Source of the DNA: an uncultured Reyranella sp.
GTDB lineage: Bacteria; Pseudomonadota; Alphaproteobacteria; Reyranellales; Reyranellaceae
Direction of reading: 5' to 3'
DNA length: 51,984 nucleotides
Assembly (NCBI GenBank): GCA_937915145.1
Contig: CALDNT010000188.1
Span: forward strand, 1 to 51,984
Made by a program: the position numbers and the translations under genes. Positions 36,652-47,130 of this stretch are shown here, piece after piece. Below the pieces are notes generated by a model. It had not been told where the DNA came from. It saw only the letters and a program-made list of their open reading frames with translations, and did no database searches. How positions within the stretch are numbered: the first letter of the stretch is position 1; every line of letters starts with the position of its first letter.

Positions 36652-36665
36652 TATTTCCGGAAATA
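36652..36665. promoter_or_regulatory. 14-bp palindrome, candidate ArsR operator
   Basis: TATTTCCGGAAATA is a perfect palindrome 38 bp before the arsR start. CCGGAAA at 36632-36638 repeats half of it. A TTGACA at 36669 could be part of the arsR promoter. Winged-helix ArsR repressors bind such AT-rich palindromes. The region is shared with divergent pstS. Confidence 0.55.
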
Positions 36666-36703: not shown

Positions 36704-37024
36704 ATGAACCTCGACGACGCCGCCGCCCGCCTGGAAGCCTTGGGCAACCCGACCCGCCTCCGCATCTATCGCATCCTCGTGCGGGCCGGCGCGGAAGGCC
36801 TGTCTGTCGGGCGCCTGCAGGCCAAGATCGACATCGCCGCCTCGACCCTGTCGCATCACCTGAAGTCACTGGTGGTCGTGGGGCTGGTGACGCAGACACG
36901 CGGCGGCACGACGCTGGTGTGCCATGCCAACTACGACATCATGCGCGACCTGCTGGGCTACATGGTCGAGGAATGCTGCGCCGAGGGAAGCTGCGCGCCG
37001 ATCGAGCTGCCCAAGGTGGCCTGA
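36704..37024 (+). CDS. arsR: ArsR-family metalloregulator (first gene of plus-strand ars operon)
   Basis: A 106-residue winged-helix repressor. The recognition region is AASTLSHHLKSLVVVGLV and the wing TQTRGGTTLVCHAN. The alpha-3 site used by plasmid ArsR (ELCVCDL) is absent; its place reads GLSVGRL. Instead a C-terminal cluster Cys91, Cys92 and Cys97 (EECCAEGSC) resembles the arsenite site of the Acidithiobacillus-type ArsR. ATG 36704 is preceded by AGGTGG. It would release the operator at 36652 on binding trivalent arsenic, controlling the four genes that follow and possibly nearby pstS. Confidence 0.88.
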   Translation: MNLDDAAARLEALGNPTRLRIYRILVRAGAEGLSVGRLQAKIDIAASTLSHHLKSLVVVGLVTQTRGGTTLVCHANYDIMRDLLGYMVEECCAEGSCAPIELPKVA

Positions 37025-37074
37025 GTTTTTTTGACCCAGTATTTCGATGATTCCGGAAGGACAGGAGTAGAAAG

Positions 37075-38427
37075 ATGCCCGACTCGATCGCCAGGACCAA
37101 GACCGTCGCCATTCTGGGTGCCGGCCCCGTCGGTCTCGCCGCCGCCGCCCATGTGCTGGAGCGTGGTCTCGAACCGGTCGTGCTCGAGGCCGGACCCACC
37201 GTCGGCCACGCCGTGCGCCAGTGGAGCCACGTGCAGGTCTTCTCGCCCTGGGAATACAACATCGACAAGGCTGCCGAGCGGCTGCTGGCCGAGACCGGCT
37301 GGAACAAGCCGCAACCCGACCACTATCCGACCGGCGCCGAACTGCTGGAGCAGTATCTCGAGCCGCTGGCTACACGGACAAGACTCAAGGACCGCATCCG
37401 CACCGCGAGCACGGTGACCAGCGTCGGGCGCGTGGGCTTTGACAAGGTGAAGACCAAGGGCCGCGAAGCCGCGCCGTTCGAGATTCGCTATCAGAATGGC
37501 AAGGGACCCGAGACGTTGCGCGCCGATGCCGTGATCGACGCCACCGGAACCTGGTTCTCGCCCAACCCGGCCGGCGCCAACGGCCTGCCGGCGATCGGCG
37601 AAAGCGAGGTGCAGGATCGCATCGCCTACGGCATGCCCGACGTATTGGGCCGCGACCGCGCGCGCTACGCCGGCCGCAGCGTCGCCGTGCTGGGCGGAGG
37701 ACACTCCGCGATCGGCACGCTGATCGATCTCGCCAAACTCAAGGACGAAGCGCCGACCACGGAGATCGTCTGGCTACTGCGCGGTGAGAATCCGGAGAAG
37801 TCCTTCGGCGGCGGTGCCGCCGACCAGCTTGCCGCGCGCGGCGCCCTGGGCAGCGCCTTCGGAGCCCTCGTGGCGGCCGGCAAGATCAGGAGCGAGACCG
37901 GGTTCCGGGTCTCGCACGTCAGCCGCGATGGCGAGCACCTGCGCATCGGCGGCGGCTCGGCCTGCTGCGGCCGCTATGTCACCGTAAACGAGCTGGTTGT
38001 CTCGACCGGCTTCCGGCCTGACCTCGATTTCCTGCGCGAGGTCAGGCTGTCGCTTGATCCCTCGCTTGAATGCCCGCCCAGCCTAGCGCCGCTGATCGAT
38101 CCCAACCTGCACAGTTGCGGCACCGTGCGCCCGCACGGCGCGCGCGAACTGGCGCAGCCCGAACCTGGCTTCTACTTCGCCGGCATGAAGTCCTACGGCC
38201 GCGCGCCGACGTTCCTGATGCTGACCGGCTACGAACAGGTCCGCTCGATCGCCGCCGAGATCGCCGGCGACCATGAAGCGGCACGCCGCGTCGAACTGGT
38301 GTTGCCCGAGACCGGCGTGTGCAACGGCCCGGCGCCCTCAGCTTCGCCCGAGGCGGCGGCCTCGTCCTGCTGCGCACCCCAGGCCGAAACGACAGTCGCG
38401 CCGAAGAGCGGCGCCTGCTGCGGATGA
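37075..38427 (+). CDS. FAD/NAD(P)-binding oxidoreductase with cysteine-pair tail (arsenic-linked flavoprotein)
   Basis: A 450-residue two-dinucleotide-fold flavoprotein. The FAD motif is ILGAGPVGLAAAAHVLE (13-29), an ATG motif reads VIDATGTWFSP, and a second dinucleotide fold is VAVLGGGHSAIGTLIDLA. It resembles flavin monooxygenases and thioredoxin-reductase-like proteins found in ars operons (ArsO and, as I recall, ArsV types). Unusual are an internal Cys297-Cys298 pair and a C-terminal tail with Cys416, Cys432-Cys433 and Cys448-Cys449 (SSCCAP, GACCG), well suited to bind As(III). It is second in the arsR operon with AGGAG before its ATG. The precise substrate is unknown; oxidation of trivalent organic arsenic is my leading guess. 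Confidence 0.75.
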   Translation: MPDSIARTKTVAILGAGPVGLAAAAHVLERGLEPVVLEAGPTVGHAVRQWSHVQVFSPWEYNIDKAAERLLAETGWNKPQPDHYPTGAELLEQYLEPLATRTRLKDRIRTASTVTSVGRVGFDKVKTKGREAAPFEIRYQNGKGPETLRADAVIDATGTWFSPNPAGANGLPAIGESEVQDRIAYGMPDVLGRDRARYAGRSVAVLGGGHSAIGTLIDLAKLKDEAPTTEIVWLLRGENPEKSFGGGAADQLAARGALGSAFGALVAAGKIRSETGFRVSHVSRDGEHLRIGGGSACCGRYVTVNELVVSTGFRPDLDFLREVRLSLDPSLECPPSLAPLIDPNLHSCGTVRPHGARELAQPEPGFYFAGMKSYGRAPTFLMLTGYEQVRSIAAEIAGDHEAARRVELVLPETGVCNGPAPSASPEAAASSCCAPQAETTVAPKSGACCG

Positions 38428-39509
38428 GCGCCGCAGCACCGGCAATGCCGAAAGGGCCGCTCGGCGGCTCCTTCGCCTGGCAGGCCGAGGCCTTCCACGA
38501 CCACGCTTCCTGGGCGATGCAGGTGACGCCAGAGGACATCGCCGAGATCGAGGCCGCCGTGGCGGCGACCCGGGCGGCCGGTCTCGACATCCGCAAGATC
38601 GAGCGCGAGGACTTCCCGCTGCCCGGCCTCGCGCCAAGGCTGACCACGCTCCGGCAGCGCATCCTGGGCGAGCTGGGCTTCGGCTATGTCCGCGGCCTGC
38701 CCGTCGAGCGCTGGGATCCCGAGTTCCGCATGAGGGTCTATTGGGGACTCTCGCGCCACATCGGCGATCCGGTGCCACAGAACCGCAACGGCCACCTGAT
38801 CGGCCACGTGATCGACATCGGCACCTCCGTCGCCGACGTCAACAAGCGCATCACCCAGACCAATGCAGAGCTCTCGTTCCATGTCGATTCCTGCGACGTT
38901 GTGGCGTTGCTTTGCCTGGCGACGTCACAATCGGGCGGCGAGAGCGCGATCGTGAGTGGCGTCGCTGTCCACGACGAGATGATGCGCACCAGGCCTGACC
39001 TCTGCGCCGCCCTCTACGGACCTATCCCAATGGACCGCCGCGGCGAGGTGCCGGCCGGTGGGAACGGCTGGTACGAGATGCCGCTGTTCCACTGGAACCG
39101 CAATTCCTTCACCGGCTTCGCACCGGTGCGCCAGTATGTCGAATCGGTACGCCGCTTTCCCGACGCGCCGCCGCTCACGCCGATCCTCTCGGAGGCGCTC
39201 GATCTCTTCTACGAGCTCTGCGCCGATCCGCGCTTTTGCTTGATGATCCCGTTTCGGCCGGGCGACATCCAGTACATCCACAATCACGTCGTGTTCCACG
39301 CCCGCACGGCCTACATCGACCACCCGCCGCCCACGCCGAAGCGCCACCTGATGCGGCTGTGGCTGTCCGCTGCCGACGGCCGCGAGCTGCCACCGGCACT
39401 GCTGGCGAAGTGGCCGGTCGTCGAACGTGGCAAGTTGCGTGGTGGCGCCGTCATCGCTCCGGACCGCGAGTGGGTGGTGCCACTTGAGCCGGAGACGCCC
39501 GCCTATTGA
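38424..39509 (+). CDS. TauD/TfdA-type Fe(II)/2-oxoglutarate dioxygenase
   Basis: A 361-residue non-heme iron oxygenase. Iron ligands are His153 and Asp155 in FHVDSCD and His292 in VVFHARTAY; Arg311 in LMRLWLS fits the 2-oxoglutarate-binding arginine. The fold text GFGYVRGLPVERW and NNHVVFHAR-like block (here IHNHVVFHAR) is typical of TauD-like enzymes of the larger type. ATG 38424 overlaps the flavoprotein stop (ATGA), so the two are translationally coupled. A flavin monooxygenase and dioxygenase pair next to arsR is reminiscent of ArsV-ArsW, described for methylarsenite resistance as I remember it. Taurine or other sulfonate use seems less likely here. Confidence 0.8.
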   Translation: MSAAAPAMPKGPLGGSFAWQAEAFHDHASWAMQVTPEDIAEIEAAVAATRAAGLDIRKIEREDFPLPGLAPRLTTLRQRILGELGFGYVRGLPVERWDPEFRMRVYWGLSRHIGDPVPQNRNGHLIGHVIDIGTSVADVNKRITQTNAELSFHVDSCDVVALLCLATSQSGGESAIVSGVAVHDEMMRTRPDLCAALYGPIPMDRRGEVPAGGNGWYEMPLFHWNRNSFTGFAPVRQYVESVRRFPDAPPLTPILSEALDLFYELCADPRFCLMIPFRPGDIQYIHNHVVFHARTAYIDHPPPTPKRHLMRLWLSAADGRELPPALLAKWPVVERGKLRGGAVIAPDREWVVPLEPETPAY

Positions 39510-40732
39510 TGGGCAAATCCGTCGCCGCCACTTCGTCGACCACCAGCGGCAGCATCGTCGCCGTCGCGGCATTGATCGGCGTGTTCGCCACCACGCCCGG
39601 CCAGACCGTCGGCGTGTCTGCCTTCGTCGATCCGATCGCATCGGATCTCGGTCTTGGCCGCACGCATGTTCTGGTTCTCTACAGTGCAGGAACATTCCTC
39701 GGCATCCTGACGGCGCCGTTCGTCGGTCGGCTGATCGACCGGTTTGGGCCGCGCCGCCTGATCGTGCCGGCGGTCGCAGCCGTCGCCGCAGCCTGCGGCG
39801 TCATGAGTCTCGCCGGCGATGCCTGGTCGCTCGGTTTCGGCTTCCTCGTCCTGCGCGCCGCCGCCATCGCCGGCCTCAGCCTCGTCACCATGCAGATGGT
39901 CAATCTCTGGTTCGACCGCTTTCGCGGCCGCGTCACCGCGCTCGCCATGATGGGACTGGCGCTGGGCGGGCTCGTCATCCCGCCCCTGATCGAACCGATC
40001 ATTCAGGGTCCCGGTTGGCGCACCGCCTACATTGTGCAGGCGGCTGGCGTGCTCGCGATCATGCTGCCGGTGGGGCTGGCGTTCTATCGCAACAAGCCGG
40101 AGCAATATGGCGCTGCCCGCGATTTCGGTCGCGCATTAGCCGGCACCACTGCCATGCCGGCGATCGGCTTCACGCTGGCGCAAAGCCTCCGCACCAATGC
40201 GTTCTGGTACTTCAGCGCCCTCACCGTGTTATCAAACGGCGTCGGTACCGCGCTCATGCTCGATCATGTCCGCGCCATGGCTGAGGCTGGCGTCGCGCGC
40301 GACAGCGCCATCCATCTGCTGGGCGCGATGACGACAGTGCAGGCGATTGCCACGCTGTGCAGCGGCTCACTCATCGACCGCTTCGGAGCGCGCCCGGTCG
40401 GCCTCCTCGGTCTCGGCCTCCTCGGCTTTTCCGTCACCTGCCTGTGGATCAACCCTTTGCTCGCCGGTGGCCTTGCCTACGCCATGACACTAGGCGCCAT
40501 GATCGGCACGCTGCAGATCGTCTATTCGGCCGGGCTTGCGGAGTCTTTCGGCCTCACGCACCTCGGCACTATCCGCGGCACCCTGTTCGTGGTCGGCGTT
40601 TCCGGCGCGGCCGCAGGACCGCTGGCGTTCCTGTGGTCACCGGTGGCGGCCTACGCGATTTTTCTTGGGATCGCCGCCGTTGCTGCCACACTCGGTCTCG
40701 TCGGCATGCGGTTCGGGGCCAAAGGGACGTGA
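39509..40732 (+). CDS. MFS transporter 1 of the plus-strand ars operon
   Basis: A 407-residue twelve-TM transporter. Motif A after TM2 reads GRLIDRFGPRRLIVP, and the repeat in the second half is GSLIDRFGARPVGLLG. The start shares one base with the dioxygenase stop (TGATG), and its end overlaps the next MFS gene by four bases. It resembles monocarboxylate or organic-anion MFS proteins rather than ArsJ or ArsP. Context suggests export of the oxidised arsenic product, but import of the substrate is equally possible. Confidence 0.78.
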   Translation: MGKSVAATSSTTSGSIVAVAALIGVFATTPGQTVGVSAFVDPIASDLGLGRTHVLVLYSAGTFLGILTAPFVGRLIDRFGPRRLIVPAVAAVAAACGVMSLAGDAWSLGFGFLVLRAAAIAGLSLVTMQMVNLWFDRFRGRVTALAMMGLALGGLVIPPLIEPIIQGPGWRTAYIVQAAGVLAIMLPVGLAFYRNKPEQYGAARDFGRALAGTTAMPAIGFTLAQSLRTNAFWYFSALTVLSNGVGTALMLDHVRAMAEAGVARDSAIHLLGAMTTVQAIATLCSGSLIDRFGARPVGLLGLGLLGFSVTCLWINPLLAGGLAYAMTLGAMIGTLQIVYSAGLAESFGLTHLGTIRGTLFVVGVSGAAAGPLAFLWSPVAAYAIFLGIAAVAATLGLVGMRFGAKGT

Positions 40733-41997
40733 CGGGGACAAGCGGAATACAGTCGGGGGCGAAACTCGTCGCGGTCGTCTGTACGGCGCAGATCTTCGTG
40801 CAGATCGGCGCCGGCTTCTGGCCCGCATTGCTGCCGCAGATGATGCAGCTCTGGCAGCTTACCAATAGTGAAGCCGGCTGGATTACCGCGATATTCTTCG
40901 GTGCCTATATGGTCTCGGTGCCAGTGCTCGTGACGCTCACCGACCGCGTCGACGCCAAGCGCATCTATCTATTCGGTGTCGCCTGCACCGTGGCTGGCCA
41001 TCTCCTGTTCGGCCTCTACGCCGACGGCTTCTGGTCGGCTTTTGCCACGCGCGCGCTCGCCGGCGTCGGCTGGGCGGGTACCTACATGACCGGGCTGAAA
41101 CTACTCGCCGACCAGGTCGATTCGAAGATGATGTCCCGCGCCGTCACGGGACACGCCGCCAGCATCGGCATCTCCGGCGCCGTCTCCTTCCTGCTGGGCG
41201 ACGTGCTGGCGGAGCATTTCGGCTGGCGCACGGCCTTCACCATCTCCGCCAGCACGGCCTTCGTCGCCTGGCTGATGGTGGCGCTTGTCGTGCCATGGCG
41301 CGCGGCACCTCCTCCGCGGGCGAAAGGCCCGATGGGAAAAGAGGGGGCCGGACAGCAGCCCGCGTTGTTCGATTTCCGTCCCGTGGTGCGCAACACGTCG
41401 GCTTTTGCCTATTCCGTCGTCTATTGCGTGCATACGCTCGAAATGAGCGCGCTGCGCGGTTGGGGCGTGGCCTTCCTCGCCTTCGTGGCGGGCTACACCG
41501 GCCTCGCCGACGAGACCCTGTCGCCGGCACTGGTCGTCACGCTGCTGGCGCTGCTCGGCACTGCCACAAGTATCGTGGGCAACGAAGCCTCGATCCGCTT
41601 CGGCCGCCGGCGTCTGGTTGCCACGGCGATGATCCTGTCGATCCTGTTCGCAGCCGTCATCGGCTTCCTCGGATCCATCAACTACTGGCTCGCCGTGGTG
41701 CTGCTGATCGCCTACGGCATGGTGGTGTGGCTGGATTCGTCGTCGGTGACGGCCGGTGCGGCCGGCAATGCCGAGCCGTCGCGGCGCGGCGCCACGCTCG
41801 CGGTCCACTCGACCCTGGGCTACGCAGGCGGCTTCGTCGGACCTCTGGTCGTCGGCTGGACGCTCGATCTTGCCGGCGGCATGTCGCCGATGGCCTGGGG
41901 CCTCGCCTTCCTCGTCGTGGCGCTGCTGATGCTTCTGGCGCTGGGCGCGTTTCTCATGCTGCGGCCGCGCGAACTTGAGGGCGACCGAGGCCGCTGA
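40729..41997 (+). CDS. MFS transporter 2 of the plus-strand ars operon
   Basis: A 422-residue twelve-TM transporter from GTG 40729, which overlaps the previous stop (GTGA) and has AAAGGGA just upstream. It begins GAKLVAVVCTAQIFVQIGAGFWPALLP and has LTDRVDAKRIYLFG after TM2 and NEASIRFGRRRLVATAM in the second half. It is not a close duplicate of its neighbour. The long central loop (about 190-215) is Pro/Gly-rich. Two unlike MFS genes in one operon may form an import-export pair or serve two products. It converges with the CusF-like gene, 8 bp apart. Confidence 0.78.
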   Translation: MTGTSGIQSGAKLVAVVCTAQIFVQIGAGFWPALLPQMMQLWQLTNSEAGWITAIFFGAYMVSVPVLVTLTDRVDAKRIYLFGVACTVAGHLLFGLYADGFWSAFATRALAGVGWAGTYMTGLKLLADQVDSKMMSRAVTGHAASIGISGAVSFLLGDVLAEHFGWRTAFTISASTAFVAWLMVALVVPWRAAPPPRAKGPMGKEGAGQQPALFDFRPVVRNTSAFAYSVVYCVHTLEMSALRGWGVAFLAFVAGYTGLADETLSPALVVTLLALLGTATSIVGNEASIRFGRRRLVATAMILSILFAAVIGFLGSINYWLAVVLLIAYGMVVWLDSSSVTAGAAGNAEPSRRGATLAVHSTLGYAGGFVGPLVVGWTLDLAGGMSPMAWGLAFLVVALLMLLALGAFLMLRPRELEGDRGR

Positions 41998-42005
41998 GGG
42001 TCCCC

Positions 42006-42377
42006 TCAGTTACTGTTCACGATGCGCTTGACGATGAAAGCCCGGCCTTCGCGTTCGACCTCAAAGCGCACTTTGTCGCCGGGCGTGAGGCCGGTCAGCA
42101 CCGTGGCATCCTGGACAGCAAAATTCCGGGTGCCGCCCTCCAGCAGGAGCTGCGGGATCGGTGAATAGTCTAGGGTGATCTTGCCGGCGATGCTGTCGAC
42201 GGCGACGACGCGACCAGCCGCGAGCGGCATACTTGCTGCCGGCTGCACTGAACCGGCCATTTCGTCATCATAGGAATAGGGCCAAGGGTCGGCCATCGTT
42301 TCTGCTACTGCGACAGACCCGGCCAAGCCGATCGTCGCAGCCAACGTGAGTATTCCGAAAGTCGCTTTAAGGGGCAT
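42006..42377 (-). CDS. CusF-like periplasmic protein lacking the copper ligands
   Basis: A 123-residue exported protein from ATG 42377, which has GGAGAG six bases upstream (the ATG at 42383 is too close). Signal peptide residues 1-26 end at AVAETM. The core GRVVAVDSIAGKITLDYSPIPQLL and TGLTPGDKVRFEVEREGRAFIVKRI matches the CusF OB-fold. The segment that should carry the copper-binding Trp-x-x-Met-x-Met is replaced by LEGGTRNFAVQ, so copper binding as in CusF is unlikely. It may be the last gene of the minus-strand ars unit (141 bp after arsJ). Confidence 0.75.
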   Translation of the reverse strand: MPLKATFGILTLAATIGLAGSVAVAETMADPWPYSYDDEMAGSVQPAASMPLAAGRVVAVDSIAGKITLDYSPIPQLLLEGGTRNFAVQDATVLTGLTPGDKVRFEVEREGRAFIVKRIVNSN

Positions 42378-42518
42378 TGTCATCTCTCCGTAACCCCATT
42401 TGGGAACTCCCGGGCCGATTGCCAGAGGTTTCAGGAGAGTGACCGCTGCGCCTTCCCTCACATTCTCGGGAGCACGCGATGACTTGAGAGGCGGCGACGG
42501 TGGCCGTCGAGATGCCGG

Positions 42519-43757
42519 TTACGCCACCTGCTTGGTGTCGTTGATCCCGGCGTGGACGGGCAGCAGGAACGTGATCGCCCAGCAGATCGCCAGCATGATC
42601 GTGGATCCCACGAGACAGGCCGCAATGCCGCCGAACTGATAGAGGGCGCCGGAGAGAAGGATGCCGAGCAAGCGGCCGGTCGCGTTGGCGGCGTAGTAGA
42701 AGCCGACATCCTCGGCGGCCTTTTCGGAGCCCGCATAGGCGAGGATCAGATAGGAGTGCAGCGAGGAGTTGACGGCGAACGGCAGGCCAAAGAGCGCAAG
42801 GCCCAGGACCACCACGATGTCGGGACGCCAGAGGTCCGGGCTCTGCAGGAGCAGCACGAGCACCAGCGGGATAGCGACGAGGAGGCCGGCCCAGAGCCGC
42901 GAATTCGGCACCTCGCGACTGAGCCCGTCGGCACTGCGGGCGACCAGGGCAGGCGCAAACGCCTGGATACCGCCATAGGCGATCGTCCAGGCCGCCAGGA
43001 AGGCGCCGACTTCGACGAAACGCCAGCCGGCGGCATAGAGAAAGACTGGCAAGCCGACGACGAACCAGACATCGCGTGCGCCGAACATGAACACTCGCGC
43101 CGCGGCCAGGAGATTGACGCCGCGCGACTTGGAGAACAGTTCGCGCATCGTCCTGGAAGACTTTGCCTTGCCGAGTTGGCGGGGCAGCAGCAGCAGGCCC
43201 GCCACCAGAACGACGCCAATCAGGGTAGCCATCAGCCAGAGTGCCGGAATGAAGCCCGTCGCGTCGAGCAGCAGACCGCCGACGAAGAAGCCCACGCCCT
43301 TCATCGCGTTCTTCGAGCCGGTGAACCAGGCCACCCACTTGAAGAGCTGGCCCGAACCGTCGGCCGCCGCGGCCTTGATGGCCGACTTCGAAGCCGTCTT
43401 GGTAAAATCCTTGGCCAGACCGGCGATGCCCTGCGCGGCGACGACCCAGGCAACGGACGCAGCCGCGGTCCAGGCCGGGTCGAGGGCCGACAACATGACG
43501 AGCCCGAGGATCTGGAGAAACTGGCCGACCGCCAGCATGCGCGGAATGCCGAAGCGCGTCGCCAGCCAGCCGCCGGCAAGGTTGGCGACGATGCCGGCGA
43601 ACTCATAGAGCAGGAACAGGAAAGCCAGGGTGAACGGCGAGTACCCGAGCTTGAAGAAGTGCAGCAGCACGAGCATCCGCAAGGCGCCGTCCACCAGGGT
43701 GAAGCCCCAGTAGGACGCCGTGACAATGAGATAGTCGCGCGCCGCCGGCGTCATCAC
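42519..43757 (-). CDS. arsJ: Organoarsenical efflux permease ArsJ
   Basis: A 412-residue MFS protein. The text [43 protein letters not shown] and [18 protein letters not shown] is typical of ArsJ. With a dedicated GAPDH, ArsJ exports 1-arseno-3-phosphoglycerate, which then breaks down outside to arsenate; this is an established route for arsenate resistance without reduction. Its start overlaps the end of the GAPDH gene (ATGA). Confidence 0.93.
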
Positions 43758-44808: not shown

Positions 44809-45660
44809 CTACGCCGACGCCATGGTGCTGTCGCCCAGTTCGTCGAGGCGCTTCCTGAGTGCCATCCGATCGAGCGAGGCGTAGGGCAGGTTGATGAAGA
44901 TCTCGAGCCGCCGGCGGATCATCCCGTAGAGTTCGTTGATCATCGTGGCGCGTTCGATCGCCGTTCCGGAGAATTTGGCCGGGTCGGGAAGAGGCCACGC
45001 GGCCGTGACGGGCTTCTCGCCGAAATCCGGGCACCGCTGGCCCTGGAGTGTGTCGCAGAGTGTGATCACGAAATCCATCCGGGGTGCATTGGGCCCGGCA
45101 AAGTCGTTCCACGACTTACACCGCAGCCTGGAGACGTCGTGACCGAGTGTGTTCAATTTCTCGATCACCTCCGCCATGGGGCCCTGCGCCGGCTCAGAGC
45201 CTGCAGAGTAGGCGTTGAACTTTCCCTTCCCGATCTGGTTGAGGATGACCTCGGCCATTTGCGAGCGGGCGGAATTGTGCGTGCACAGGAACAGGACGTT
45301 GAATGCGGGTGTCATACTTTCATCCTCCAGCGTTTCCTCAGGCAGCAGCCGCGCCAGGTCTCCACACAACTCGGGTCGCCCCGAACAACAGGTCTCGGTC
45401 AGAAAACTGAAAAGCGCGCGCAGCCCGGCGATACGCACCGCGTATATGACGTGCCGTCCCTGGCGGGTGGACTGCAACAGACCCGCCTGTTCGAGCGCCG
45501 ACAGATGGAATGACAGTGTCGATGGCGCCTGCCGCAGCTTGGCGGCAAGATCGCCGGCCGCCATGCCGGAAGCACCCCTGGTCGCCAGCAGCCGCATGAG
45601 TCCTAGACGCGTCTCCTGCGAGAGCGCCGCAAACCCGAGGGCCGCATCCGTTGCTTCCAT
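44809..45660 (-). CDS. arsC: ArsR-ArsC fusion: As(III) sensor plus arsenate reductase
   Basis: A 283-residue two-domain protein. Residues 1-105 are an ArsR winged helix ([18 protein letters not shown]) with Cys91-Cys92 and Cys99 ([10 protein letters not shown]). Residues 119-270 are a low-molecular-weight phosphatase-type ArsC with P-loop CTHNSAR (Cys126-Arg132) and the redox pair Cys202 and Cys210 ([11 protein letters not shown]). It reduces arsenate to arsenite for Acr3. An internal ATG at codon 116 (45315) has a perfect GGAGG eight bases upstream, so a free ArsC may also be made. Confidence 0.9.
45315..45328 (-). promoter_or_regulatory. Internal ribosome-binding site and start for stand-alone ArsC
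   Basis: On the minus strand GGAGG (45328-45324) is followed after 8 bases by ATG (45315-45313), in frame, exactly at the junction of the ArsR and ArsC domains ([11 protein letters not shown]). Confidence 0.6.
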
Positions 45661-45700
45661 TCTTCTGGAATAGTCCAACGGTATGACAGGGCCGTTACAA

Positions 45701-46762
45701 TTAGGGCCCCTTTGTTGCCTCGACTCGCCGCGCGACGGCGGGGCCGGCCTCGTACCAGCCCTTGCTGGCATTCACGATCTTGACGACCGACAGCATGACC
45801 GGGACTTCGATCAGGACGCCGACCACAGTGGCCAGCGCCGCGCCGGAGGAGAATCCGAACAGGCTGATCGCCGCGGCGACCGCGAGTTCGAAGAAGTTGC
45901 TGGCGCCGATCAGGGCAGACGGTGCCGCGACGCAGTGGGCTTCACCGGTCGCCCGGTTCAGGAAATAGGCGAGGCCCGAGTTGAAGTAGACCTGGATCAG
46001 GATCGGCACGGCCAGCAGCGCGATGATCAGCGGCTGTTCGATGATCTGTTCACCCTGGAAACCGAACAGCAGCACCAGCGTGGCCAGAAGCGCCACCAGC
46101 GAGGCCGGCTGCAGGCGCGCGAGCAGCCGTTGCAGGCCAGACTGCCCACGGCGCGACAGAACACTGACCCGCAGGAGCTGCGCCAAAGCGACGGGCACGA
46201 CGATGTAGAGGCCCACCGAGAGCAGGAGCGTCTGCCACGGCACGGTGATGGCCGACAGGCCGAGCAACAGGCCCACGATCGGCGCGAACGCAAACACCAT
46301 GATCGAGTCGTTGAGGGCGACCTGGGTCAGTGTGAAATCGGGTTCGCCGTCGGACAGGTTGCTCCAGACGAACACCATTGCCGTGCAGGGTGCCGCCGCC
46401 AGCAGGATCAGGCCGGCGATGTAGCTGTCGATCTGGTCGGCCGGCAGCCACGGCGCGAACAGGTAGCCGATGAACAGCCAGCCCAGCGCCGCCATCGAGA
46501 ACGGCTTTACCGCCCAGTTGATGAACAACGTCACGCCGATGCCGCGCCAGTGTTCGCGGACCTTGCCGATGGCCGCGAAGTCGACCTTGACCAGCATGGG
46601 GATGATCATCAGCCAGACCAGGACGGCGACGGGCAGGTTGACGTGCGCGACCTCGGCCGAACCGACGGCGTGGAAGACCGCGGGAAAGAAATGGCCCAGC
46701 GCGATACCCACGACGATGCACAGCGCGACCCAGAGGGTCAGGTAGCGTTCGAAGAGCGACAT
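45701..46762 (-). CDS. acr3: Arsenite efflux transporter Acr3
   Basis: A 353-residue ten-TM BART-superfamily carrier. The essential cysteine is Cys126 in LLAAAPCTAMVFVWSNLSDGE, and the second conserved region is IGASNFFELAVAAAISLFGFSSGAALATVVGVLIEVPVML. The opening SLFERYLTLWVALCIVVGIALG is characteristic. It expels arsenite using the proton gradient. Its ATG shares one base with the arsR stop (TGATG). It is followed after 40 bp by the ArsR-ArsC fusion that supplies its substrate. Confidence 0.96.
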   Translation of the reverse strand: MSLFERYLTLWVALCIVVGIALGHFFPAVFHAVGSAEVAHVNLPVAVLVWLMIIPMLVKVDFAAIGKVREHWRGIGVTLFINWAVKPFSMAALGWLFIGYLFAPWLPADQIDSYIAGLILLAAAPCTAMVFVWSNLSDGEPDFTLTQVALNDSIMVFAFAPIVGLLLGLSAITVPWQTLLLSVGLYIVVPVALAQLLRVSVLSRRGQSGLQRLLARLQPASLVALLATLVLLFGFQGEQIIEQPLIIALLAVPILIQVYFNSGLAYFLNRATGEAHCVAAPSALIGASNFFELAVAAAISLFGFSSGAALATVVGVLIEVPVMLSVVKIVNASKGWYEAGPAVARRVEATKGP

Positions 46763-47130
46763 CAGCTGGGCCGGGCCGGCCGCGCCGCGCGCCGGCGCAC
46801 GAGCGTCGCGGATTGGGGTTCGCATACCGGGACGCGACAGGAGCCGTCGCCGCCGCAGCAGTTGTCGGTGAGAAATTCCATCAGCCCATTCATGGCATCG
46901 TAGTTCACGGTGTAGATCAGCGAGCGGCCGTCGCGCCTGACCTGCAGCAGTCCCGCATGCTTCAGCTGCGCCAGATGGAACGAGAGCGTTGGCGGCGCGA
47001 TCTTCAGACGCTCGGCGATCTGGCTGGGCGGCAGACCCTCGAGGCCGGCCTGGACCAGCAGACGGAACATCTCCAGCCGATGCTCCTGAGCGAGCGCTGC
47101 CAAGGCCGGCACGGCTTCGTATGATTTCAT
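46762..47130 (-). CDS. arsR: ArsR-family arsenic repressor (first gene of minus-strand ars operon)
   Basis: A 122-residue winged-helix repressor. The recognition helix is APPTLSFHLAQLKHAGLL and the wing VRRDGRSLIYTVNYDAM. The As(III) site is C-terminal: Cys91, Cys92, Cys98 (NCCGGDGSC) with an extra Cys103. The C-terminal Arg/Ala tail is not typical and may be disordered. It heads the acr3 operon and lies 58 bp downstream in genome order from phoR's stop, with a candidate operator in that gap. Confidence 0.92.
   Translation of the reverse strand: MKSYEAVPALAALAQEHRLEMFRLLVQAGLEGLPPSQIAERLKIAPPTLSFHLAQLKHAGLLQVRRDGRSLIYTVNYDAMNGLMEFLTDNCCGGDGSCRVPVCEPQSATLVRRRAARPARPS

Follow-up and report, generated by a model that had tools for sequence, protein, structure and literature searches.

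The window analysed here, a stretch of 51,984 nucleotides from a Reyranella-like genome (98% complete), contains an arsR-led operon next to an acr3/arsC/arsJ unit, and raises the question of which form of arsenic, if any, this second system handles and what role a dioxygenase encoded within it might play. The host is a soil and water bacterium. The operon lies on the forward strand and comprises genes for an ArsR/SmtB repressor (arsR, 36704-37024; NF033788, 64 bits, cut-off 55), a flavoprotein with two dinucleotide domains that is a candidate ArsV-type enzyme (37075-38427; Pyr_redox_3, 58 bits), a TauD/TfdA-family Fe(II)/2-oxoglutarate dioxygenase (38424-39509; PF02668, 116.7 bits, or 117 when rounded, gathering score 27) and two MFS transporters, MFSa (39509-40732; MFS_1, 80 bits) and MFSb (40729-41997, GTG start; MFS_1, 125 bits). 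A gap of 50 bp separates arsR from the flavoprotein gene, and the following junctions overlap by 4 bp (flavoprotein/dioxygenase), 1 bp (dioxygenase/MFSa) and 4 bp (MFSa/MFSb), with an alternative in-frame TTG start for MFSa possible at 39506. These coordinates confirm the five genes, their order, the 50-bp gap and the 1-4 base overlaps described in an earlier note on this DNA. Since the gene order recurs in relatives and pairwise dN/dS values against the window range from 0.08 to 0.32 for all five genes, the arrangement is not attributable to chance.

The arsenic link proposed in the earlier note holds across genomes, with arsR lying directly upstream of the flavoprotein gene in 76 of 80 related loci, so that homologous clusters are not found mainly without this repressor. 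In the remaining loci, an ArsR-like or contig-cut arsR gene precedes the flavoprotein (L073, L097 and L084) or none does (L089). An even sample of the phylum (398 genomes) yielded 18 genomes carrying the flavoprotein, 16 of them with arsR directly upstream; flavoprotein genes without an adjacent arsR were observed in L178, L182 and L141 (the Streptomyces FR-008 plasmid). Matches to Acr3, ArsJ or ArsC were present in 42 of the 54 flavoprotein loci spanning at least 15 kb, as against 0 of 14 loci harbouring dioxygenase paralogues. Flavoprotein copies were also identified on plasmids, beside aioBA/arsH in Nitrobacter, beside arsJ in Neotabrizicola, beside arsR-acr3-arsO and arsC-trxB in Streptomyces FR-008, and followed by a true ArsK (513 bits) in Ensifer. 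Contig ends truncate part of this set of 80 loci, with five gene runs stopping within 1.2 kb after the flavoprotein, and the operon compositions reported for the set are hence lower bounds; the PstS and PstC query labels in the locus comparisons are names given by eye.

A perfect palindrome, TATTTCCGGAAATA (36652-36665, forward strand), is located at -52 relative to arsR and recurs upstream of related arsR genes, which makes it a probable ArsR operator. Allowing up to two mismatches, it is the sole match to TATTTCNNGAAATA within the window, and the same pattern was detected in 70 of 104 arsR upstream regions (window counted), with 65 of these 70 instances at -51 to -53, compared to 0.35% of shuffled sequences. 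The window ArsR contains cysteines at positions 73, 91, 92 and 97. In an alignment of 103 ArsR sequences, the window included, C91 and C92 are invariant and C73 is conserved in 102, whereas C97 is present in 54 and missing from 49. The methylarsenite-selective SpArsR reportedly has a C-terminal cysteine pair without a third cysteine; the aligned ArsRs resemble it in that all keep the pair and the third C-terminal cysteine is not conserved, but the window protein is among those that do possess it. The triad reported for AfArsR is Cys95-Cys96-Cys102, whereas in the window protein (C91, C92, C97) the third cysteine lies five residues on rather than six. Given its Cys97, the window ArsR may respond to As(III) in the way AfArsR does. 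The assignment of this repressor as As(III)-type in the earlier note is uncertain.

The flavoprotein is an FAD/NAD(P)H two-domain protein of the monooxygenase type, as indicated by the Pyr_redox_3 match and by its predicted structure (AF2, mean pLDDT 77), which adopts a YpdA/FMO-like fold and matched YpdA, FMO and N-hydroxylase folds. Its C-terminal tail is rich in cysteines, and an alignment of 115 sequences (window included) revealed that C348 and C416 are conserved in all of them and the CC432-433 pair in 114. The comparison with ArsO suggested in the earlier note shows that the protein is not ArsO (NF040505, 48 bits against a curated cut-off of 425). It resembles ArsO as an NAD(P)H flavoprotein of ars operons, but a separate annotated ArsO occurs near a member of the flavoprotein family on the FR-008 plasmid. 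No ArsV model figured among the NCBIfam matches of the window proteins. ArsV and ArsW are reportedly a flavin monooxygenase and an efflux transporter involved in methylarsenite resistance. The earlier note had described them as a monooxygenase-dioxygenase pair, which is at odds with published accounts in which ArsW acts as an efflux transporter and not a dioxygenase. By description, the arsR-flavoprotein-MFS core probably corresponds to the described ArsV-type oxidase and its exporter: both combine a flavin monooxygenase-like protein and an MFS protein in an arsR-led operon, such systems are found in many soil bacteria, and the arsR-flavoprotein-MFS set is also present on a Paracoccaceae plasmid. 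The window operon differs in its TauD dioxygenase and in having two MFS proteins, neither of them ArsK-like.

The dioxygenase is the unusual part of the operon. It belongs to the same family as TauD/TfdA, FrbJ and the solved protein 7n7v, with an HxD...H iron triad, a 2-oxoglutarate arginine and a complete set of Fe/2-oxoglutarate residues. H153, D155, H288, H292, R307 and R311 are conserved in at least 97% of 35 homologues, and we take H153, D155 and either H288 or H292 to form the triad and R307 or R311 to be the 2-oxoglutarate arginine. The closest solved chains are 7n7v ("predicted hydroxylase") and then FrbJ (5eqn), a phosphonate-antibiotic enzyme; the structure model of the window protein itself is unusable (pLDDT 36, 10-row alignment). 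The earlier note had not singled this enzyme out. What distinguishes it from these relatives is its genomic setting, with close orthologues (at least 84% identity) located inside this arsR-flavoprotein operon in all 10 family genomes having one. These represent 10 of 61 family genomes and 10 of the 80 flavoprotein loci, the gene being missing from the other 70, some of which are contig-cut, and thus dispensable. The dioxygenase is under purifying selection in 10 of 10 comparisons (dN/dS 0.09-0.17). It has been gained or lost several times on the flavoprotein tree, where about six state changes are an approximate figure owing to weak inner forks and long branches joining at the base, and a remnant persists in L038. 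The window's own row was left out of this tree and placed by its 81-91% identity to the 10 dioxygenase-bearing rows.

Paralogues of the dioxygenase (53-59% identity) reside in loci without a match to the ars proteins used (12 of 12), adjoining LysR regulators and in some cases also an ABC importer, which suggests ordinary catabolic substrates. Cys157 was considered as an arsenic-specific cysteine because it adjoins the HxD motif, and was rejected upon finding that the column is also Cys in paralogues outside ars loci; as the cysteines of the enzyme are common to these paralogues, no arsenic-specific site is visible in it. In another family, two genomes (loci L186 and L187) present the flavoprotein divergent from a dioxygenase-arsR-arsC set, and the dioxygenase homologue in them falls in a different subclade from that of the window. 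The third homologue returned by the class-wide search (L188) showed no ars match. A TauD gene on Streptomyces plasmids was not counted as a further recruitment, given that it lies approximately 4 kb from the flavoprotein gene with other genes between, is 39% identical and sits on a far branch. Since distant relatives seem to have added a dioxygenase independently, this protein may be an undescribed arsenic-processing enzyme. A literature search for a published arsR-flavoprotein-dioxygenase operon returned none, with most subscription papers beyond its reach.

The neighbouring unit lies on the reverse strand and encodes ArsJ (42519-43757; NF033734, 520 bits, cut-off 400), an ArsJ-associated GAPDH and ACR3, all above their curated cut-offs, together with an ArsR-ArsC fusion whose HTH part exceeds the NCBIfam cut-off and whose phosphatase-like part exceeds that of Pfam. 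The operon is distinct from this unit, as had been proposed. In the genome as a whole, the ArsH and ArsI models gave no match above cut-off, the ArsI_CadI_VOC model no match at E 0.001, and NF008823, which we take to represent arsenite methyltransferase, no match above cut-off (best score 65.5 bits, cut-off 263). That best match, a 326-residue protein in which ArsR and a methyltransferase are fused, encoded on another contig, was not taken for ArsM because the next gene looks by eye like metF. ArsH or ArsI were present in 4 of 10 family genomes without the flavoprotein versus 2 of 51 with it (Fisher p = 0.005, uncorrected for relatedness), a pattern that suggests substitution. Their joint absence from the 10 dioxygenase-bearing genomes means little, as merely 6 of 61 family genomes have either.

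These results are best accounted for by an operon for arsenical detoxification that is under ArsR control and has an ArsV-type core, to which a dioxygenase acting on the organic part of the arsenical has been added, a reading to which we assign a probability of roughly two in three. The analysis establishes the gene structure, the arsR linkage, the operator-like palindrome, the conserved cysteines, the intact catalytic residues, the purifying selection and the recurrent dioxygenase-ars association; all substrates, as well as oxidation, export and attack on the C-As bond, are inferred. A trivalent arsenical would bind the ArsR cysteines and release the repressor from the upstream palindrome; the inducer would most likely be an organoarsenical such as methylarsenite, with As(III) or Sb(III) as further possibilities. 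The NAD(P)H/FAD flavoprotein would then bind the trivalent metalloid through its conserved cysteines and oxidise it to a less toxic pentavalent form, and the MFS proteins would export the product. In the Reyranella clade, the dioxygenase would have been inserted between oxidase and exporters, most likely to hydroxylate the organic group of its arsenical substrate. The carbon attacked may be the one adjoining arsenic, in which case the C-As bond would break down. TauD acts in this manner on taurine. The loss of this bond would yield an aldehyde and inorganic arsenic, the latter passing to the neighbouring Acr3/ArsC/ArsJ unit. The cysteine pair pattern of the ArsR family is in line with the earlier proposal that the operon handles another arsenical form, such as methylarsenite or an organoarsenical, with an organic or other trivalent arsenical as the likely substrate. 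A stronger version would make the TauD-family protein a new class of arsenic enzyme, brought into arsenic loci on two or more occasions: once an ArsV-type oxidase has converted MAs(III) to MAs(V), it would hydroxylate the carbon adjoining pentavalent arsenic and cleave the C-As bond, with formaldehyde and inorganic arsenic as products. This version appears rather unlikely. Its outcome would be that of ArsI, an iron dioxygenase breaking the C-As bond that belongs to another model, ArsI_CadI_VOC, and is to our knowledge the only C-As lyase. If correct, the pairing of a 2-oxoglutarate dioxygenase with an arsenical oxidase would constitute an added oxygen-dependent route acting on the pentavalent form, with a bearing on what becomes of arsenical herbicides and methylated arsenic, in oxic soils where pathways for organoarsenical demethylation and detoxification are incompletely known.

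The role of the dioxygenase could be more modest. In a plain ArsV/ArsW-type operon it might be a passenger whose substrate is some unrelated metabolite or an arsenic-stress by-product, outside arsenical chemistry. Its restricted distribution, its several gains or losses, the remnant in L038 and the LysR and ABC importer genes beside its paralogues all point that way, but its location in the operon in the 10 genomes with a close orthologue, the purifying selection on it and the second-subclade homologue linked to arsR-arsC next to this flavoprotein make this an improbable reading, if one with some claim. We regard as still less probable that the enzyme hydroxylates the side chain of a complex organoarsenical, such as the phosphonate-like antibiotic arsinothricin or an arsenosugar, without C-As cleavage, the two exporters serving two products. 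FrbJ as second closest solved relative is consistent with this, as is a 2-aminoethylphosphonate LysR model being the second-best match of the LysR neighbours of two paralogues, a weak hint since it scores far below cut-off and many other LysR models score nearly as high. Against it, none of the operon's genes was recognised as serving the biosynthesis or uptake of compounds of this kind, and the substrate guess is based on weak family matches.

Other readings concern the metalloid itself. The flavoprotein might oxidise As(III) or Sb(III), with the MFS proteins exporting inorganic species, as would fit Cys97 as a potential third ligand in the window ArsR, the related Ensifer flavoprotein with its true ArsK and the title of the ArsV paper, which names antimonite oxidation. 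Acr3, ArsC and ArsJ are known to handle inorganic arsenic, so the neighbouring unit should already do so, and C97 is missing from 49 of 103 family ArsRs; we consider an inorganic operon doubtful. ArsR-family proteins can also sense redox state or other metals, and 12 of the 54 loci spanning 15 kb or more lack Acr3, ArsJ and ArsC matches, as might be expected if an ArsR-family thiol sensor controlled an operon for redox stress or xenobiotics. The co-location of ars genes with the other 42 and with none of the 14 controls, along with the flavoprotein in plasmid ars islands, renders an operon unrelated to arsenic very improbable.

Regarding the transporters, neither MFS protein qualifies as ArsK or ArsJ by the curated cut-offs. 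MFSa scored 24.7 bits against ArsK (NF033733, cut-off 400) and MFSb had no match at E 0.001, whereas the MFS partner of the flavoprotein reaches 513 bits in Ensifer and, below cut-off, 200-220 bits in Nitrobacter, Neotabrizicola and L073. ArsJ was likewise rejected for both (no NF033734 match, cut-off 400; for MFSb, at E 0.001). Of the 80 loci, 56 have a homologue of MFSb (35-92% identical) within the gene run that follows the flavoprotein. The two-transporter version, which the earlier note had thought possibly new, is not special, as at least two MFS genes occur in 38 of the 80 related loci. The survey outlines a modular arsR-flavoprotein core that gathers up to three different MFS families, whatever the dioxygenase does.

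The five-gene arrangement described in the earlier note (36704-41997, + strand) was borne out together with its spacings: arsR is followed by genes for a flavoprotein (450 residues), a TauD-family dioxygenase (361 residues) and two MFS proteins, MFSa and MFSb. The divergent genes upstream of the operon are, by eye, pstS and pstC; a PhoU protein is encoded farther out. Downstream, the opposite strand carries genes for a CusF-like protein, ArsJ with its associated GAPDH, a fusion of ArsR and ArsC, and Acr3. The CusF-type copper-binding periplasmic domain protein (42006-42461, - strand) sits between both ars units of the window, and in L031, L036 and L043 such a protein is likewise encoded close to the operon. 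The fusion (44809-45771, - strand), in the arsJ unit, combines ArsR with a domain resembling ArsC (low molecular weight phosphatase), and a second, stand-alone ArsR-type gene occupies 46762-47130. The closest relatives of the flavoprotein in the genome collection come from Reyranella genomes, and the assembly containing the window is rated 98% complete.

The arsenic interpretation put forward in the earlier note stands, given the position of arsR and the co-location of ars genes. Scanning the genome collection for flavoprotein relatives yielded 278 stretches, and in 76 of the best 80, which were retained, a strict test placed arsR immediately before the flavoprotein gene. Among the remaining four loci, L073 and L097 present an ArsR-like gene upstream, L084 ends at a contig edge, and neither arsR nor an ArsR-like gene was seen upstream in L089. 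The flavoprotein was detected at E <= 1e-60 in 18 of 398 sampled genomes of the phylum, that of the window included, with arsR directly upstream in 16 carriers and not in the other two (L178 and L182). Matches to Acr3, ArsJ or ArsC were identified in 42 of the 54 retained loci of at least 15 kb, against 0 of 14 control loci with dioxygenase paralogues, which span 7.8 to 15 kb. ArsH or ArsI occurs in 4 of 10 family genomes without the flavoprotein versus 2 of 51 with it (61 genomes), a distribution hinting at functional replacement.

Relatives of the flavoprotein were also present on 135 plasmid records, six of which were examined. The gene adjoins aioBA and arsH in Nitrobacter and arsJ in Neotabrizicola, and the Ensifer plasmid shows the order arsR-flavoprotein-ArsK. 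Two Streptomyces plasmids carry it divergent from arsR and close to acr3 and arsC. On a further one, pSSFR1 of Streptomyces sp. FR-008 (L141), it adjoins arsR-acr3-arsO and arsC-trxB, its direct upstream neighbour being another oxidoreductase and not arsR. Since this relative, with an MFS gene, lies near a separate annotated ArsO, pSSFR1 holds two flavoprotein families in one island.

The flavoprotein of the window is likely ArsV, given that its family, context and partners match. Its predicted model (mean pLDDT 77, falling below 50 in the C-terminal tail and in stretches around C348) resembles flavoproteins with two dinucleotide domains, such as YpdA, FMO and N-hydroxylases. All 115 distinct sequences compared, including that of the window, have C348 and C416; 114 retain the CC pair at 432-433, 106 retain C448 and 107 retain C449. 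These conserved thiols would fit a trivalent metalloid substrate. An identity as ArsO was ruled out (48 versus 425 bits).

Three MFS families were found after the flavoprotein gene, namely MFSa, MFSb and MFSc, the last of which is ArsK-like (218 bits, with the ArsK cut-off at 400). Two or more of them occur in the ensuing gene run in 38 of the 80 loci, so the two-transporter version, previously regarded as possibly new, is ordinary in this flavoprotein family. All three families are present in five loci, and L039 and L047 combine them with the dioxygenase in one operon.

A perfect palindrome, TATTTCCGGAAATA, starts 52 bases before arsR, and no second match within 2 mismatches was found anywhere in the window. 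At this tolerance it recurs in 70 of the 104 distinct sequences upstream of arsR (counting that of the window), 65 of them at -51 to -53, versus a rate of 0.35% in shuffled sequences. The palindrome was not found at the neighbouring acr3 unit, and the two ars units therefore probably answer separately. In an alignment of 103 family ArsR proteins, Cys91-Cys92 is kept in all and Cys73 in 102, and a third C-terminal cysteine is present in 54, including the ArsR of the window. Passages of PMC11868830 and PMC13236881 describe AfArsR as sensing As(III) through a three-cysteine site, and SpArsR, in which the third cysteine is absent, as sensing MAs(III) only. With Cys91-Cys92 universal and the third cysteine variable, the residues required for MAs(III) are thus conserved in the family, and the sequence of the window's ArsR suggests that it could bind either As(III) or MAs(III).

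The interest of the operon lies in its dioxygenase, which is present in 10 of the 80 loci. All 61 family genomes contain a TauD-type match and 10 an orthologue with 84% identity or more, in every case within the arsR-flavoprotein operon. The 12 fetched loci with 53-59% identical paralogues gave no match to the ars proteins of the query set; their scanned conserved neighbours include LysR regulators (L154 and L155) and, in L154 and close relatives, an ABC importer. In the flavoprotein tree, a single group of 26 rows, mostly Reyranella, contains all 11 rows that bear the dioxygenase, and the presence or absence of the dioxygenase requires at least six changes of state; L038 retains a decayed fragment. 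In all ten pairwise comparisons with the window, dN/dS ranges over 0.09-0.17, and the enzyme is therefore under selection. Its iron and 2-oxoglutarate residues are intact, and among solved structures 7n7v and FrbJ are its nearest chains. On two Streptomyces plasmids (L164 and L165), a distant TauD gene is separated from the flavoprotein gene by about 4 kb containing other genes.

A class-wide dioxygenase search over 385 genomes (E <= 1e-110) matched five: the window's own, another genome of its genus whose paralogue lies outside ars loci, and three with a 57-60% identical homologue. In G622 and G709, from one genus of another alphaproteobacterial family, the homologue lies within an ars locus (L186 and L187) whose flavoprotein is 55-57% identical to that of the window. 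In L187, dioxygenase-arsR-arsC lies on the strand opposite to MFSc-flavoprotein-arsR. The flavoprotein gene of L186 follows an arsR whose translation, judged by eye, is of the CxC type, and dioxygenase-arsR-arsC (tblastn) and an aquaglyceroporin-like gene are divergent from the flavoprotein gene. The third homologue (L188, G584) adjoins LysR and LysE genes, with no ars match at the locus. On the dioxygenase tree, L186 and L187 form a group (100/100) with L188 and two paralogues from outside ars loci, separate from the Reyranella operon clade (100/99), the deeper fork being weak (81/42). The simplest reading is two separate recruitments to ars loci, G622 and G709 counting as one additional event since they share a genus. 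The Reyranella palindrome was not found before L186 or L187 (best, 5 mismatches).

The operon is a variation on a known type of arsenic system. The pairing given in the earlier note as ArsV-ArsW, a monooxygenase with a dioxygenase, needs correcting, ArsW being reported as an efflux transporter. In the proposed scheme, a trivalent arsenical would bind ArsR and release it from the operon, the flavoprotein would oxidise the arsenical, the MFS proteins would export the pentavalent product, and the dioxygenase would alter the organic moiety of the arsenical. Enzymes of the TauD type add a hydroxyl group to the carbon adjoining sulfur, and the bond then breaks; the same chemistry on an organoarsonate would free inorganic arsenic, which the adjoining Acr3/ArsC units could handle. 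There is a modest chance that the dioxygenase represents a new class of arsenic enzyme. Neither ArsH, ArsI nor NF008823 (arsenite methyltransferase) gave a match over cut-off in the genome of the window (98% complete), and this leaves a slot open without identifying the substrate. The same genome encodes a 326-residue ArsR-methyltransferase fusion (L189, contig C293, 1190-2170) with metF after it by eye, which is probably a methionine-cycle regulator and not an arsenic enzyme.
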